From the NCBI GenBank assembly GCA_024401305.1, contig JAKSLI010000006.1, forward strand, positions 16,235 to 80,234: DNA of 64,000 nucleotides. The letters are read 5' to 3'. The notes under the pieces were generated by a model. That model did no database searches. It had not been told where the DNA came from and saw only the letters and a program-made list of their open reading frames with translations. Numbering within the stretch: the first letter of the stretch is position 1; each line of letters opens with the position of its first letter. Shown piece after piece: positions 3,268-7,550 of the stretch. A program made the position numbers and the translations under genes. The stretch is from Bacteroidaceae bacterium. Lineage in GTDB: Bacteria > Bacteroidota > Bacteroidia > Bacteroidales > Bacteroidaceae.

Positions 3268-3397
3268 GTTTTAACGAATTTACAGAACGACTAGTCTTGA
3301 GGATTTTGATTGATAGATTGATGGATGCAAAATTACAAAATAAATCGGAAGCAACAAAACATTCCTCCATTTTCTGTCGCAAATAGATAGTTTACAC

Positions 3398-3418
3398 ACG
3401 ATTTGAAATTGAAATCGT
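3398..3418. repeat. Small hairpin family P2, copy 2
   Basis: Stem ACGATTT/AAATCGT with loop GAAATTG, preceded by ACAC, 130 bp upstream of the transposase start. It is in the same orientation as the copy beyond the transposase stop (1969-1989). The A-T to G-C change relative to that copy is compensated on the other arm. Confidence 0.75.
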
Positions 3419-3490: not shown

Positions 3491-4396
3491 CTATTTTTCA
3501 TCTATTGGTTTTGTGTCAAAAGGCAAGCAGCCATAAGCTACATCATCTTCATTGACAAACAAATCTTGGCTGTATCCTTCTCCTAAAACCTTTAGGTCTG
3601 CAATATGGCGTCTCAGATTAGCTCTTACACTAACATCTTCCAGTTCTTCCCTTCGCGCTTTGCTCATTTCGCAAAATTCTTCAGCCTGTTCAATTCCTGC
3701 AAACCTACGGTCACAAAGATTAGCAGCTATGCCAGTAGTAGAGCTACCGCTAAAAGGGTCAAGAATCCAATCCCCTTTGTCCGTTGAAGCAAGTATTATG
3801 CGAGTCAGAACAGATAGAGGTTTCTGCGTAGGATGCTTGCCACATGACTTTTCCCAACGACCGATGGCAGGCAAACGCCAAACATCAGTCATCTGCTTGT
3901 TGTCGTTGAGTTTCTTCATCAGTTCATAGTTGTACTTATGAGCTACTTTCTTGCACTTCCTCGCCCAGATGATGAACTCAGTTGAGTATGTAAAGAAACG
4001 ACAAGAGATATTTACAGGCGGATTGGTCTTCTGCCATGTGATTACATTCAGTATCTTGTAGCCAAGTTCAGTGAGGCAGTTAGCTACAGAAAAGATGTTA
4101 TGATATGTTCCCGAAATCCAGATAGTGCCATTATCCTTCAGCTTGTCGCGACACAATCCGAGCCACTCAATGTTGAAATCCTTCATTTCTTCAGGACTCT
4201 TTCCTTTGTCCCATTCGCCTTTGTCCACGCAAACCACCTTCCCGCTCTGTAGGCTTATGCCACCATTGGAGAGAAAGTAAGGAGGGTCGGCAAATATCAT
4301 GTCGAACTTGAAGCTAAAGTCTTTTAGCAACTGAAACGTATCTCCATGAGCAAGAAGGAAATCGTTATTGGGAGATTTGTAATAGGTTTCTATCAT
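3491..4396 (-). CDS. DpnA-like adenine-N6 DNA methyltransferase (beta class)
   Basis: A 301-residue SAM-dependent DNA methyltransferase. The catalytic motif 'DPPY' is at 37-40 and the SAM-binding motif 'DPFSGSSTTG' at 213-222, an order typical of the beta class. In DpnII-type systems this second enzyme methylates adenine in GATC, including on single strands, which protects incoming DNA. Its ATG overlaps the stop of the endonuclease gene by four bases (ATGA), so translation is probably coupled. It is the last gene of a three-gene operon. Specificity for GATC is inferred from the operon, not read from a recognition motif. Confidence 0.88.
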   Translation of the reverse strand: MIETYYKSPNNDFLLAHGDTFQLLKDFSFKFDMIFADPPYFLSNGGISLQSGKVVCVDKGEWDKGKSPEEMKDFNIEWLGLCRDKLKDNGTIWISGTYHNIFSVANCLTELGYKILNVITWQKTNPPVNISCRFFTYSTEFIIWARKCKKVAHKYNYELMKKLNDNKQMTDVWRLPAIGRWEKSCGKHPTQKPLSVLTRIILASTDKGDWILDPFSGSSTTGIAANLCDRRFAGIEQAEEFCEMSKARREELEDVSVRANLRRHIADLKVLGEGYSQDLFVNEDDVAYGCLPFDTKPIDEK

Positions 4397-5226
4397 TTCA
4401 TTTCTTGCTTTACTTCTTCAAGAAACTCAGGCAATGTCGTAAAATTGTACATACGAGGAATATCATTGTAGGCTTCAGCTAGTTTATTCTTTGCGCTATT
4501 CCATCCTTCGCCATCAGTAATCCAGACGAATTCATATCCCTCAACGCCATTTACTATAGGAGCCAGTTCACGATATGCACGAGCAACCTCGTTAAGTTTT
4601 GAACCACCTCCACTATAGTAATTCAGCTCTATGAGATAAGTTGTTTGTTTTGTCTTTATGACAAAGTCAAAGCGCTTTTCATCTTCTCCAAGAACTGCCT
4701 TAATCTCAGGAAACTCACTTGAATAAACCTCCATACGATGGATTATGTCGTTTGTGTTTAGGATTCTATGAAGGAGAGTTTCTGTTATGTCGCCACTTCT
4801 GTTCTTTCGCGCATTAGTATCAAGACCAGTTTCAACGCCAAAAACATAATCTACTAAATCGTTCACGTCTTTATTAGTGAACACTTCTGCAAGTCCTGTT
4901 TCTTCAAGGAACTTCATTACTCCATCAACGGAAGTAAACAACGAACTTACAAGATAAGCCTTACCATCATTATCTATGAATTTCTTCCTATCCTTGCGTC
5001 TTGTTGCGATAAGAATGTCAAGAACATTAAAGGCCGATTTGTCCCTTACCCAAAGTGCTGTAACCGCTTCCCTTAAGTTTTCTTTGCCCAACAGGAAATT
5101 CAGCATATTTAGGCTAATGGCTATGTTGTTTACATTATTGCGTATCTTCTTGAAATCGGAATAAAAGTCAAGAGTGGCATTTGTCTCTGATAGTTGAGAC
5201 ATGAATTTATTGAAGTCCTTTTCCAT
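4393..5226 (-). CDS. DpnII/MboI-type restriction endonuclease (GATC)
   Basis: A 277-residue type II endonuclease. Family features: N-terminal 'FNKFMSQLSETN' and 'YSDFKKIRNNVNNI', central 'DLVDYVFGVETGLDTNARKN', and the C-terminal segment 'RFDFVIKTKQTTYLIELNYYSGGGSK', whose D...E-L-N pattern is the likely catalytic site. 'FVWITDGEGW' follows near the end. The ATG at 5226 was chosen over an in-frame TTG at 5262 because it leaves a 20-bp overlap with the upstream methyltransferase and starts 'MEKDFNKF'. It cleaves unmethylated GATC. The gene sits between two methyltransferases, the classic DpnII layout. The DNA looks more AT-rich than the flanking metabolic genes. Confidence 0.92.
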   Translation of the reverse strand: MEKDFNKFMSQLSETNATLDFYSDFKKIRNNVNNIAISLNMLNFLLGKENLREAVTALWVRDKSAFNVLDILIATRRKDRKKFIDNDGKAYLVSSLFTSVDGVMKFLEETGLAEVFTNKDVNDLVDYVFGVETGLDTNARKNRSGDITETLLHRILNTNDIIHRMEVYSSEFPEIKAVLGEDEKRFDFVIKTKQTTYLIELNYYSGGGSKLNEVARAYRELAPIVNGVEGYEFVWITDGEGWNSAKNKLAEAYNDIPRMYNFTTLPEFLEEVKQEMK

Positions 5227-6133
5227 TTTTGAAAGCTTTGGTTTCTTCGTAATTATGTACAAGTATTTCAGTTAGTTTTCCTCTTTTCGTTGGATTCGCA
5301 TTGATGCTTCTTGATGCCCAAACACGTTCTATTTGATAGTCTTTGTAAAGCAAGTCAAAGAAATTGTCTGCCTCGTTCTTTCCCTTGCAGTCAGAATTGC
5401 TTAGCATAAAATGGAAACCTGCTTCTTTGATTCTATCGCAATACTCCTTCAAGCGAATCTGAGCCTCATCATTGAAAGACTCTTTAGCATAGTCGTTGAA
5501 ACTTGAAGTATCGCTCAAAGGGCGATAAGGTGGATCAAAATAGAAGAGCGTATTGCCTTGGGCATATTGAAATGTATTTTCAAAATCACCAGTCAATATC
5601 TCTACTCGTTGAAGTAATTCGCTATCTTTGCGAATGGTTATTGGATCACAAATCAGAGGATTAGTGTATTTGCCGAAAGGAACATTGAAAAGACCTTTCT
5701 TGTTCACACGATAAAGACCATTGAAACAAGTACGATTCAGGAAGAAGAATTTTGTTGTGTTCTCAATCGGTTCAAGATTCTTTTCGTTATATCGGTCACG
5801 AGCGGCAAGGAAGAAATCTTTGCGAGCTTCTTCTGTTCCAAGAGCATTGTAAACATTCTGAATATCCTGTAAAGATGATATTAGTTCTTCTGGATTGTCT
5901 CTAACCGTACGATAACATGTCGTCAAATCTGGATTAACATCATTAATTACCGCGTGATTGATATTCGGGTATCGTTGTAGCATATAGAAGAGCATAGCTC
6001 CACCGCCAACGAAAGGTTCAATGTAAGTTACATTATCCCAATTACCAAAGTCAGCTGGCAACTGTGCATCCAGTTGTTCTATGAGTTGCGACTTTCCCCC
6101 AACCCATTTGATAAAAGGTTTTGCTTTTGCCAT
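5207..6133 (-). CDS. Dam-family (alpha class) adenine-N6 DNA methyltransferase
   Basis: A 308-residue D12-class methyltransferase, the DpnM-type partner of the GATC endonuclease. The SAM-binding motif 'FIKWVGGKSQL' is at 7-17, 'YIEPFVGGGAMLF' at 37-49, the recognition-region motif 'FNGLYRVNKKG' at 137-147, and the catalytic 'DPPY' at 200-203. It is the first gene of the operon, so methylation can precede cleavage after entry into a new cell. The ATG at 6133 is preceded by an AAGAAGGA ribosome binding site buried in a hairpin, described separately. It is complete for the family. Confidence 0.93.
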   Translation of the reverse strand: MAKAKPFIKWVGGKSQLIEQLDAQLPADFGNWDNVTYIEPFVGGGAMLFYMLQRYPNINHAVINDVNPDLTTCYRTVRDNPEELISSLQDIQNVYNALGTEEARKDFFLAARDRYNEKNLEPIENTTKFFFLNRTCFNGLYRVNKKGLFNVPFGKYTNPLICDPITIRKDSELLQRVEILTGDFENTFQYAQGNTLFYFDPPYRPLSDTSSFNDYAKESFNDEAQIRLKEYCDRIKEAGFHFMLSNSDCKGKNEADNFFDLLYKDYQIERVWASRSINANPTKRGKLTEILVHNYEETKAFKNGKGLQ

Positions 6134-6260
6134 AGTAATCCTTCTTACATTACGAAAAAGCCCTTGCCTATTGTTTCAGGTAAGGGCGTGGAAGAAGGAT
6201 TGTAGTTAATCCATGGCTTAGCACTGCCAGCATCAGACAACAAAGAATCTGTCCACGCCC
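6134..6260 (-). promoter_or_regulatory. Attenuator-like leader of the GATC restriction-modification operon
   Basis: On the transcribed (minus) strand the following lie directly before the methyltransferase ATG. A 10-bp hairpin GCCCTTACCT/AGGCAAGGGC (6178-6187 with 6160-6169, one G-U) is followed by five Us and has the form of an intrinsic terminator. An outer helix AATCCTTCTT/AAGAAGGATT (6192-6201 with 6137-6146) contains the ribosome binding site. An upstream GGGCGTGGA (6252-6260) is perfectly complementary to TCCACGCCC (6184-6192), which overlaps the terminator arm. These pairings are partly exclusive, as in an attenuator or riboswitch. The ligand or trigger is unknown. Confidence 0.6.
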
Positions 6261-6439
6261 TATGTGAAGCGTGAACATCGTTGTCGTGACCGTACTGATG
6301 CTTATTTCTGAGGTGCTAATTCTGGGTTGTCAGTAACGTCAAGGATGTTCAAGGCTTATGTTCTTGTTCGGTCTTTGTCAATAAGTGCTGCCAATACCCT
6401 AATGCAGACATTACTTAGTTTAGGTTTAGCTCATAAAAA

Positions 6440-6580
6440 ACGTAGGTATTCATTCCGCTCATTCCTCGATTGAGGCCTTCCACAGCCTTGAGTTGAGAAC
6501 TTGCAGAGCAATACCTACGTCGGATATACAAATACACCCATAGTGTGCATGAAAGTCCTTGTAAGACTTTCTGCACACAC
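6440..6580 (-). ncRNA. Structured RNA with terminator, upstream of the restriction-modification operon
   Basis: Read on the minus strand, an 11-bp closing helix ACGTAGGTATT/AATACCTACGT encloses about 58 nt that contain a further GCTC/GAGC pairing and a CCTC-AATC-GAGG hairpin. The right arm runs straight into six Us. Just 5' lies a second strong hairpin (TGTGTGCA and GAAAGTC arms at 6542-6579, one bulged base). No plausible protein reads through it. It could be a small RNA between the 67-residue gene and the operon, or the sensing part of the leader. Promoter not identified. Confidence 0.45.
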
Positions 6581-6738
6581 GGGATGCATGGATTGCATAC
6601 CAATAGGCATCACTTTCAGCTTTGCTTCTGACAACTCTTTTGAATGTGGAAGTTTCAATCGATCAAAAACAAGCATCAATGACGCTTTTTCCATATGTCA
6701 TATTCCTTTAGTTTTATGCCGTAAGGAAAAAATTCGGG

Positions 6739-6942
6739 CTATCGTTTTAGACGAACTTCTTCGTCTATTTCGCACATACTAATTTTGTTTGCTATCATAT
6801 AGTAAACAGACGACTTTTTGTATCCCATCGTCTTGTAAACCAAGTTATCATAATTATTAGCATACTTGAGAACTGTGTCTTCGGATAAATTTATTAGTTC
6901 TACCGTAGCAGTCTCATAATTCAAAATAGCAAGTTGCGCCAT
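6739..6942 (-). CDS. Small conserved-looking protein (67 aa)
   Basis: I do not recognise this gene. It encodes 67 residues beginning 'MAQLAILNYETATVELINL', with alternating hydrophobic strands followed by a lysine- and tyrosine-containing helix, no signal peptide and no membrane segment. It reads away from the aldolase side towards the restriction operon, about 600 bp upstream of the Dam-type methyltransferase. Codon composition is AT-rich like the operon. It may be a small regulator or a passenger of the island. A coding origin is supported mainly by its start, length and composition. Confidence 0.5.
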   Translation of the reverse strand: MAQLAILNYETATVELINLSEDTVLKYANNYDNLVYKTMGYKKSSVYYMIANKISMCEIDEEVRLKR

Positions 6943-7253
6943 ATTCTTATTTTCGCTAGCAAAGTGGTAAATTATTCCATATAAAATAATTCCTCTTTTA
7001 GCATTTGTGTTTCAGATTTACTATTAGGTTTAAACCTATCAAGTATGATTAATCTGCTGCAAAAGTACGAATATTCTTTTTACCAACAAAAAGATTTTGA
7101 CATTATCTTTGTGTTTATGTTAAAATTAAACATGATCAACATGATCAGCAATTCTTAATGGCTATCACATTACTAGCTCATGTCCAAAATGGACACAAGA
7201 TCAGGAGAGGAACGGCAGAACTGACACACAATTTGAAATTGAAATCGTGAGCA
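6943..7253. other. Gene-free spacer with GATC cluster and TGTCC palindrome
   Basis: No credible gene. The spacer has two GATC sites nine bases apart (7134-7137 and 7143-7146, within CATGATCA repeats) and a third at 7199-7202. A palindrome TGTCC-AAAAT-GGACA lies at 7181-7195, with the form of a dimeric regulator's operator. The third copy of the P2 hairpin lies at 7228-7248. Much of the rest is AT-rich. Confidence 0.5.
7228..7248. repeat. Small hairpin family P2, copy 3
   Basis: Stem ACAATTT/AAATCGT (one G-U pair) with loop GAAATTG, preceded by ACAC. It lies 5 bp from the stop of the 98-residue gene and some 4 kb from the transposase. It shows that this hairpin occurs away from the transposase gene, as a REP-like solo copy would. 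Confidence 0.75.
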
Positions 7254-7550
7254 TTAGTGCTCCAAAACTTCCTCGAGAATTGTTTCATCAGCGAAGGTTC
7301 TTTGATAGAAAATCGGATAACCGAGGGAGACGGGATGTTCTGCTTTGTTGATTCGCTTTACGCTGTCAAGGTCGGGTAAGCCGAAGTCAAAACTCCTGCC
7401 ATAGAGTATAATCCTGCCGTTCTGATTGTCTATCTTCCACAATCCGCCGCCATGGCAAGTGGTGTGACCTTTGGGCAACAGTTCCCTGTGAAGATAGACA
7501 TTGCCAAACTTCAGCACGCCGTCGAGCGTTATGATGAATTTGTTATACAT
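7254..7550 (-). CDS. Hypothetical protein (98 aa)
   Basis: I do not recognise this gene. It encodes 98 residues with no signal peptide: 'MYNKFIITLDGVLKFGNVYLHRELL' at the start, a glycine/histidine segment 'HTTCHGGGLWKID' and a C-terminus ending 'EETILEEVLEH'-like acidic residues. It looks like a small beta-rich cytosolic protein. It is the gene nearest the aldolase, on the same strand, and is separated from it by an intrinsic terminator, so it probably has its own transcript start or depends on read-through. Confidence 0.6.
   Translation of the reverse strand: MYNKFIITLDGVLKFGNVYLHRELLPKGHTTCHGGGLWKIDNQNGRIILYGRSFDFGLPDLDSVKRINKAEHPVSLGYPIFYQRTFADETILEEVLEH

Follow-up and report, generated by a model that had tools for sequence, protein, structure and literature searches.

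A probable cis-acting leader RNA class of Bacteroidota, found in tandem before a DpnII-type restriction-modification operon

Described control of restriction-modification genes and related RNAs

The control of restriction-modification (R-M) systems by C proteins, antisense RNA and hairpins is covered in the parts considered here of two reviews, from 2013 (PMC3874152) and 2025 (PMC12707154); in those parts the word 'riboswitch' does not occur, and the stem 'attenuat' occurs once in the former and not in the latter. Like the known mechanisms, that is, C proteins, methyltransferase repressors, the antisense RNAs of EcoRI and Eco29kI and hairpins at REase start sites, the RNA described here would set the timing or level of R-M expression; unlike them, each described for single systems, it belongs to a class found before type I, type II and type III systems alike. 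So far, R-M control has been described as private to each system, and a shared RNA would, if true, represent control of innate immunity and DNA uptake at the level of the cell. Such control could explain the silence of new R-M systems on arrival and could help make rumen Prevotella transformable.

Helices that share a strand, a terminator before the start codon and tandem copies are general features of riboswitches and attenuators. The leader analysed here resembles riboswitches and terminator-antiterminator attenuators in all of these, being a structured leader with one strand in two exclusive helices, a terminator with a U-run before the start codon and tandem copies, but differs from them in that it reaches no Rfam 15 threshold and has R-M and other genes, rather than a metabolic pathway, as its targets. 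Indeed, Rfam 15 yields no match at threshold in the window, by which we mean the whole stretch of 64,000 nucleotides that was analysed, and, at E-values of up to 5, positions 6000-7300 match only five unrelated families, far below threshold. Nor does any Rfam match overlap the RNA in 17 loci of the wider family described below or in 20 further loci, the matches elsewhere in those loci being one tRNA and three sub-threshold matches of other families, one on both strands. No earlier description was found in the literature searched, a scope outside which lies a list of 224 candidate RNAs that has reportedly been published.

Structured RNAs beside defence genes are known from type III toxin-antitoxin systems, in the part of PMC3874152 considered, and from AbiF. 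The antitoxin RNA, however, binds its toxin protein, whereas the proteins encoded downstream of the present RNA class appear to differ too much from one another to be bound by a single RNA. The smtA motif ('Soda Lake RNA'), similarly a large structured RNA upstream of a gene for a SAM-dependent methyltransferase, is reported only from Thioalkalivibrio and its methylase is not described as an R-M enzyme in the passages of PMC11109978 concerned, so that the two are set apart by description rather than by structure. Word searches of structured-RNA screens revealed no such motif in the passages found (PMC2864571, PMC7366714, PMC11109978, PMC6429828), and none of the words is present in PMC8632094.

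The tandem leader of the DpnII-type operon

The DpnII-type operon lies on the minus strand, where Pfam identifies a D12 adenine methyltransferase (positions 5207-6133; PF02086, E 5.3e-60), the DpnII restriction endonuclease (4393-5262; PF04556, E 1.8e-92) and a second DNA methylase, N6_N4_Mtase (3491-4396; PF01555, E 1e-57), in this order of transcription. The initial annotation had placed three helices 5' of the ATG of the D12 methylase gene (position 6133), and all three are found there. The structure signal is far larger than that stretch: the fold of positions 6270-6125 has a z-score of -2.79 relative to shuffled sequences, whereas that of positions 6640-6131 (510 nt) reaches -7.23, with 0 of 100 shuffles equally stable.

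This larger signal comprises two copies of the RNA on the minus strand, a long copy A (6437-6698) and a short copy B (6156-6350), the latter holding the features of the initial annotation. A core model, R3, built from 19 distant members without any copy-A or copy-B sequence (94.4% paired, 32 of 36 pairs changing on both sides), when run on the window with filters off, scores copy B at 66.9 bits (core match 6207-6329, E 2.1e-15) and copy A at 38.8 bits (6466-6662, E 1.2e-8), the next best match having 6.9 bits. Given that neither copy contributed to the model, the leader is a tandem of one RNA class. A weak further member, with GCGUGG and CCACGC strands, is seen on the plus strand near the contig end (63664-63856; R3 20.9 bits, E 0.044), the gene that follows it falling outside the window.

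A candidate promoter, judged by sequence, is TACTTTTG (7060-7067, minus strand), which fits TAnnTTTG, a Bacteroidetes -7 consensus; in an alignment of ten copies that includes the window, the same motif stands just 5' of the RNA element in 8 of the 9 others. The presumed leader further contains, on the minus strand, a 67-aa open reading frame (ORF) without a Pfam family (6942-6739), where aligned relatives have a 5' hairpin. A 29-nt repeat occurs in three direct copies around the operon (1961-1989, 3390-3418 and 7220-7248) and recurs about 0.6 kb ahead of the window and on a different contig; the repeats adjoin an ORF (3267-2008) without a Pfam match, which resembles, judged by eye, a REP-associated transposase with an HIH motif. 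The bases after the U-run (6153-6125, minus strand), GTAATGTAAGAAGGA, resemble ATGTCAAAGAAGAAA, with which methylase genes that follow the same leader begin, and, judging from the alignment of relatives, the DpnII operon may have replaced another cassette there.

In detail, the three helices fared differently. The terminator hairpin with its U-run is present on the minus strand (6155-6187; arms 6187-6178 and 6169-6160, five U at 6159-6155), but one A.C mismatch leaves 9 of 10 positions paired instead of the full 10 bp proposed. The sequence upstream that complements its left arm is perfect over 10 nt, one more than originally counted (AGGGCGTGGA, 6261-6252, with TCCACGCCCT, 6192-6183). The 10-bp helix with the ribosome-binding site (RBS) likewise has 10 of 10 pairs in the window (AATCCTTCTT, 6201-6192, with AAGAAGGATT, 6146-6137) and encloses the terminator hairpin. 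As a general design, however, the burial of the RBS does not hold: this outer helix (6137-6201, minus strand), which pairs the RBS-like AAGAAGGA, reaches -10 kcal/mol in only 2 of 63 testable sequences, namely, the window and locus L137, the other 61 falling below, so that no conserved pairing of the kind expected of a translational switch is found among them.

Covariation and one strand in two exclusive helices

Ten copies, the window included, align over the whole element, with GGGCGUGGAC invariant; in 8 of the 9 others a single base separates the terminator U-run from an ATG, in place of which the ninth has GTG. A DNA search of 100 genomes, including the genome of origin, gave matches in 22, some to short stretches only. 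An alignment of 13 sequences, made without structural guidance, has 46 predicted pairs, of which 16 vary at both positions and still pair. At an E-value of 0.001 or lower, a model built from these 13, the window among them (R1; window score 150.9 bits), has matches in 88 of the 398 genomes of the genus, and 67 matches score at least 88 bits; across 65 close relatives, 97.2% of paired cells pair, compared with 39-46% when partners are slid, and both sides vary in 31 of 46 pairs. In helix PB, for example, the 5' strand UUAGCAC (6313-6319, minus strand; partner 6224-6218) contains a pair that is GC in 46 relatives and CG in 19. The terminator helix (helix 7) also covaries in the 65 sequences, 8 of its 10 pairs changing on both sides, which, together with the retained competing complementarity, points to more than a chance arrangement. 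Among non-Watson-Crick cells, G-U (186) far exceeds A-C (21; other, 78), which points to a structure on the transcribed strand, as fits RNA. Alignments A2, A3, A4, A6 and A8 are fitted to a model and favour its pairs, A1 and A9 are not, and A3 omits the cut-off L120 and L139, L138 as a near copy of L137, and weak matches.

The strict copy-B form is confined to the family level, given that model R2 has matches in 29 of the 301 family genomes at 1e-5, whereas across the phylum, at 1e-4, it matches only 3 of 296, these being the genome of origin and two weak matches. By contrast, R3 matches 26 of 247 phylum genomes in eight families, with the genome of origin and two training genomes counted. Because model searches over more than 40 genomes score few candidates per genome, all such genome counts are lower bounds. 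The weak matches share the architecture: in 52 members (8 strong, 44 weak), 94.5% of cells pair, both sides vary in 34 of 36 pairs and the score is 0.80, compared with about 0.1 for slid partners. The distant members have little common primary sequence outside the loops, in several of them the next ORF is at least 200 nt away, and the next genes of wide-family members often look, by eye, secreted or lipoprotein-like. This wider class is an orphan switch-like RNA of Bacteroidota, whose signal can now be sought.

The long and short modules can occur separately; in the window and many relatives, A is followed by B, copy A being found by a pattern test within 500 nt upstream of copy B in 27 of 74 matches, weak ones included. 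Another tandem, at locus L122, joins a wide-family type (615-802) to an R-M type (1201-1380). From 57 distinct copy-A sequences, 8 without a 3' end by pattern and 3 cut short were omitted and the window was entered by its own coordinates; in the remaining 46, helices PA, PB and PC and the terminator-type helix at the 3' end each prefer their own partner over swapped ones (0 of 5000 permutations as good). The apical alternative of copy A is weakly supported (44 of 5000). The first U-run of copy A was considered as a third terminator and set aside; in copy-A relatives, UUGUUUUUG can pair with CAAAAACAA further on, a pairing that may or may not be genuine, given that 107 of 5000 permutations do as well in the swap test. 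The copy-A model that RNAalifold itself proposes, weighted towards the terminator hairpin and with 11 of 40 pairs changing on both sides, was likewise set aside.

Each copy folds into a long irregular hairpin of helices PA, PB, PC, PD and apical PE, PD being the least regular. The middle strand (GGGCGUGGA in copy B) is the 3' strand of the apical hairpin and can instead pair with a second partner immediately 5' of the gene, one pairing excluding the other. On the minus strand, the apical 5' strand of copy B is GUUCACGCUU (6267-6276), the middle strand, which is the upstream 9-nt sequence of the initial annotation, AGGGCGUGGA (6252-6261), and the second partner UCCACGCCCU (6183-6192), which overlaps the 5' arm of the terminator and touches the RBS helix. 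The apical helix covaries, with 96.4% of cells paired and 9 of 10 pairs changing on both sides in the 52 members. The long-range helix lies outside model R3 and was evaluated by swapping partners: own pairing averages -16.4 kcal/mol compared with -13.9 for swapped pairing in the 52 members and -17.1 compared with -14.1 in 33 R3 matches (0 of 5000 permutations in either case), and it beats the swapped mean in 48 of the 52, being no better in 4. The 33 derive from 41 distinct R3 matches, seven without a locus and the window's own being omitted, and include L314 and L315, which are also among the 19 training sequences. Beside a U-run, 30 of the 33 reach -14 kcal/mol, compared with 2.3% after mononucleotide shuffling of the downstream stretch; in the U-run-bound search of the 52 members, the window itself yields -5.9, although its 10-bp helix is present, because no U-run comes directly after its 3' strand. 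One count of apical hairpins in R3 matches read a short stretch and misses hairpins with long loops. Pairs of middle strand and 3' partner include GCGCAG/CUGCGC, GUGUGG/CCACAC and GGACGUGG/CCACGUCC, and all 65 close relatives have uninterrupted complementarity of at least 8 bp between the two regions, G-U allowed, in a count without a shuffled control.

Because the apical and long-range helices use the same bases, they cannot form together. In sequence comparisons, both pairings of the middle strand are conserved and mutually exclusive, as a switch requires, and what emerges is a conserved, covarying structured leader 5' of genes, the exclusive helices of which link the core to the terminator, as in riboswitches, together with a conserved hairpin and U-run before the gene, as in attenuators. 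A terminator and a competing helix before the methyltransferase gene were read as a switch by the initial annotation, and this much of its interpretation stands, these two elements being conserved, whereas the burial of the RBS is peculiar to the window copy.

As long as the apical hairpin engages the middle strand, the terminator of copy B would form and transcription would stop before dpnM; once freed, the middle strand would pair with CCACGCCC, the second partner that doubles as the 5' arm of the intrinsic terminator, the terminator would be broken and the operon transcribed. The long-range helix of copy B would therefore oppose termination, given the overlap of its 3' partner with the terminator arm. 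In copy A and most wide-family members seen, by contrast, a U-run comes after the long-range helix, which should therefore be the terminator itself, so that one signal would act oppositely on the two copies; opposite signs in tandem could make a two-input or band-pass gate. The leader probably acts on transcription rather than otherwise. In energy models of the window, the terminator state (-68.3 kcal/mol) is dominant over the competing, long-range state (-61.5 kcal/mol), the competing helix having a mean pair probability of 1e-5 without a factor, from which we infer a leader that is OFF by default and, presumably, a signal that tips the balance.

Downstream genes and competing explanations

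An exact pattern within copy B gave 72 loci, all in Prevotellaceae, Bacteroidaceae or Bacteroidales and mostly from ruminant-gut assemblies, with Prevotella communis E15-14, Xylanibacter brevis ATCC 19188, X. ruminicola Ga6B6 and Prevotella sp. tc2-28 as cultured carriers; many of these loci are also R1-search loci, and the two samples are thus not independent. In seven the stretch ended before a first ORF. Of the remaining 65 first proteins, 59 are C5 DNA methylases, two contain AIPR and one each MutH, ICEA and AAA_5, the tally not naming its members. The first ORF begins within 3 nt of the U-run (TTTT) in 55 of the 65; of the 10 others, 5 have no terminator end by pattern, so that their ORF distance is not real. 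Scanned singly, 18 loci have as first gene eight C5, two D12, one type I and one type III methylase, one MutH-type and one Alw26I-type enzyme, one TPR protein and two proteins without a Pfam family, one of which (L043) PADLOC assigns to the type II methylases; at L050, also among the 18, the scanned gene is solely a HigB toxin gene on the other strand. Diverged copies, likewise scanned singly in a set that excludes L133, are followed by a BstXI- or MjaI-type enzyme as first or second gene (L124, L125) or by another type II enzyme according to PADLOC (L115, L123, L132, L134, L135), and no family was found for the first or second gene at L121 and L128.

Within the genome of origin (86% complete), the RNA precedes the DpnII operon in tandem, a type I hsdM gene (L054, copy A type, 41.9 bits), a type III res gene (L311, 55.5 bits) and an EcoRI-type methylase gene (L313, 32.0 bits, the weakest), as well as the gene of a BspA-type protein (L310) and that of a small protein with no family assigned (L312). 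Thus, 4 of 11 methylase loci (four methylase families plus the EcoRI-type) have the RNA, with the type III locus, where res lies between RNA and methylase, counted as one operon; the other 7 have none within flanks of at most 1.5 kb, cut at contig ends, and PF00145 has no locus in this genome. The RNA is, therefore, not exclusive to R-M.

Taken together, the feature is probably the 3' end of the second tandem copy of an undescribed class of cis-acting leader RNA of Bacteroidota, which stands before R-M and related defence genes in Prevotella-type bacteria. The class, its structure, the selection on two exclusive helices and the position before R-M genes are established by comparison of sequences. 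An attenuator specific to DpnII, with a buried RBS and nothing more, as the initial annotation implied, is scarcely tenable: all the helices it names are present in the window, but the comparative data contradict it, given that the same RNA class precedes many other R-M families, stands in two tandem copies in the window and does not conserve the RBS helix. It is very unlikely that the conserved unit is a DNA element, that is, a site of recombination or cassette exchange before interchangeable R-M cassettes. One conserved leader does abut many unrelated R-M genes, with sequence conserved up to the ATG; the compensating changes, among which G-U cells are many and A-C cells few, nevertheless indicate RNA, distant members share little sequence outside the loops, and exact matches to three patterns are absent from the viral contigs searched.

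Two explanations accept an RNA. The copies could be independent non-coding RNAs, each transcribed from a promoter and ended by a terminator of its own, that act in trans and lie before these genes by chance, the gene being expressed by read-through or from its own promoter; the promoter-like motif just upstream of aligned copies, the terminator-like end of each copy and the distant ORFs of several remote relatives are compatible with this, but we regard it as quite unlikely because 55 of 65 first ORFs in the R-M subset nearly touch the U-run, a plain small RNA needs no two exclusive helices, and the genes vary while the RNA stays. A constitutive or ribosome-coupled attenuator, in which tandem terminators keep R-M low without a ligand and the fold times the terminator or blocks translation, is unlikely, though it deserves consideration: the terminator state dominates the predicted ensemble and low R-M expression is useful by itself, whereas the conserved alternative pairing and a complex core kept over the phylum exceed the needs of a simple terminator.

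Under the preferred reading of a cis-acting leader class, close relatives before many unrelated R-M systems in rumen Prevotella-type bacteria suggest common RNA control of such immunity, and the RNA may coordinate several R-M systems in one cell. Whether a phylum-wide switch RNA was recruited as the common R-M regulator, with one intracellular signal setting restriction as a regulon, is a tentative proposal that we hold at slightly under even chances; the RNA before types I, II and III in one cell, often in tandem, would then respond, for example, to a nucleotide- or SAM-related cue or to a sign of phage attack. Methylation of one site, put forward earlier as a signal, seems unlikely as a general one, given that the leader is common to R-M systems of many families and types. 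The data speak neither for nor against SAM level or arrival in a new host, which the initial annotation also named.

Among the diverged copies, L118 and L127 precede an operon of TPR, MazG-like and Schlafen-type helicase genes, a candidate defence operon. The TPR protein behind the same RNA, for which PADLOC gives no match at L118, is followed there by a MazG-like protein and at L127 by a Schlafen-type helicase, and loci L131 and L048 resemble these two by their N-termini.
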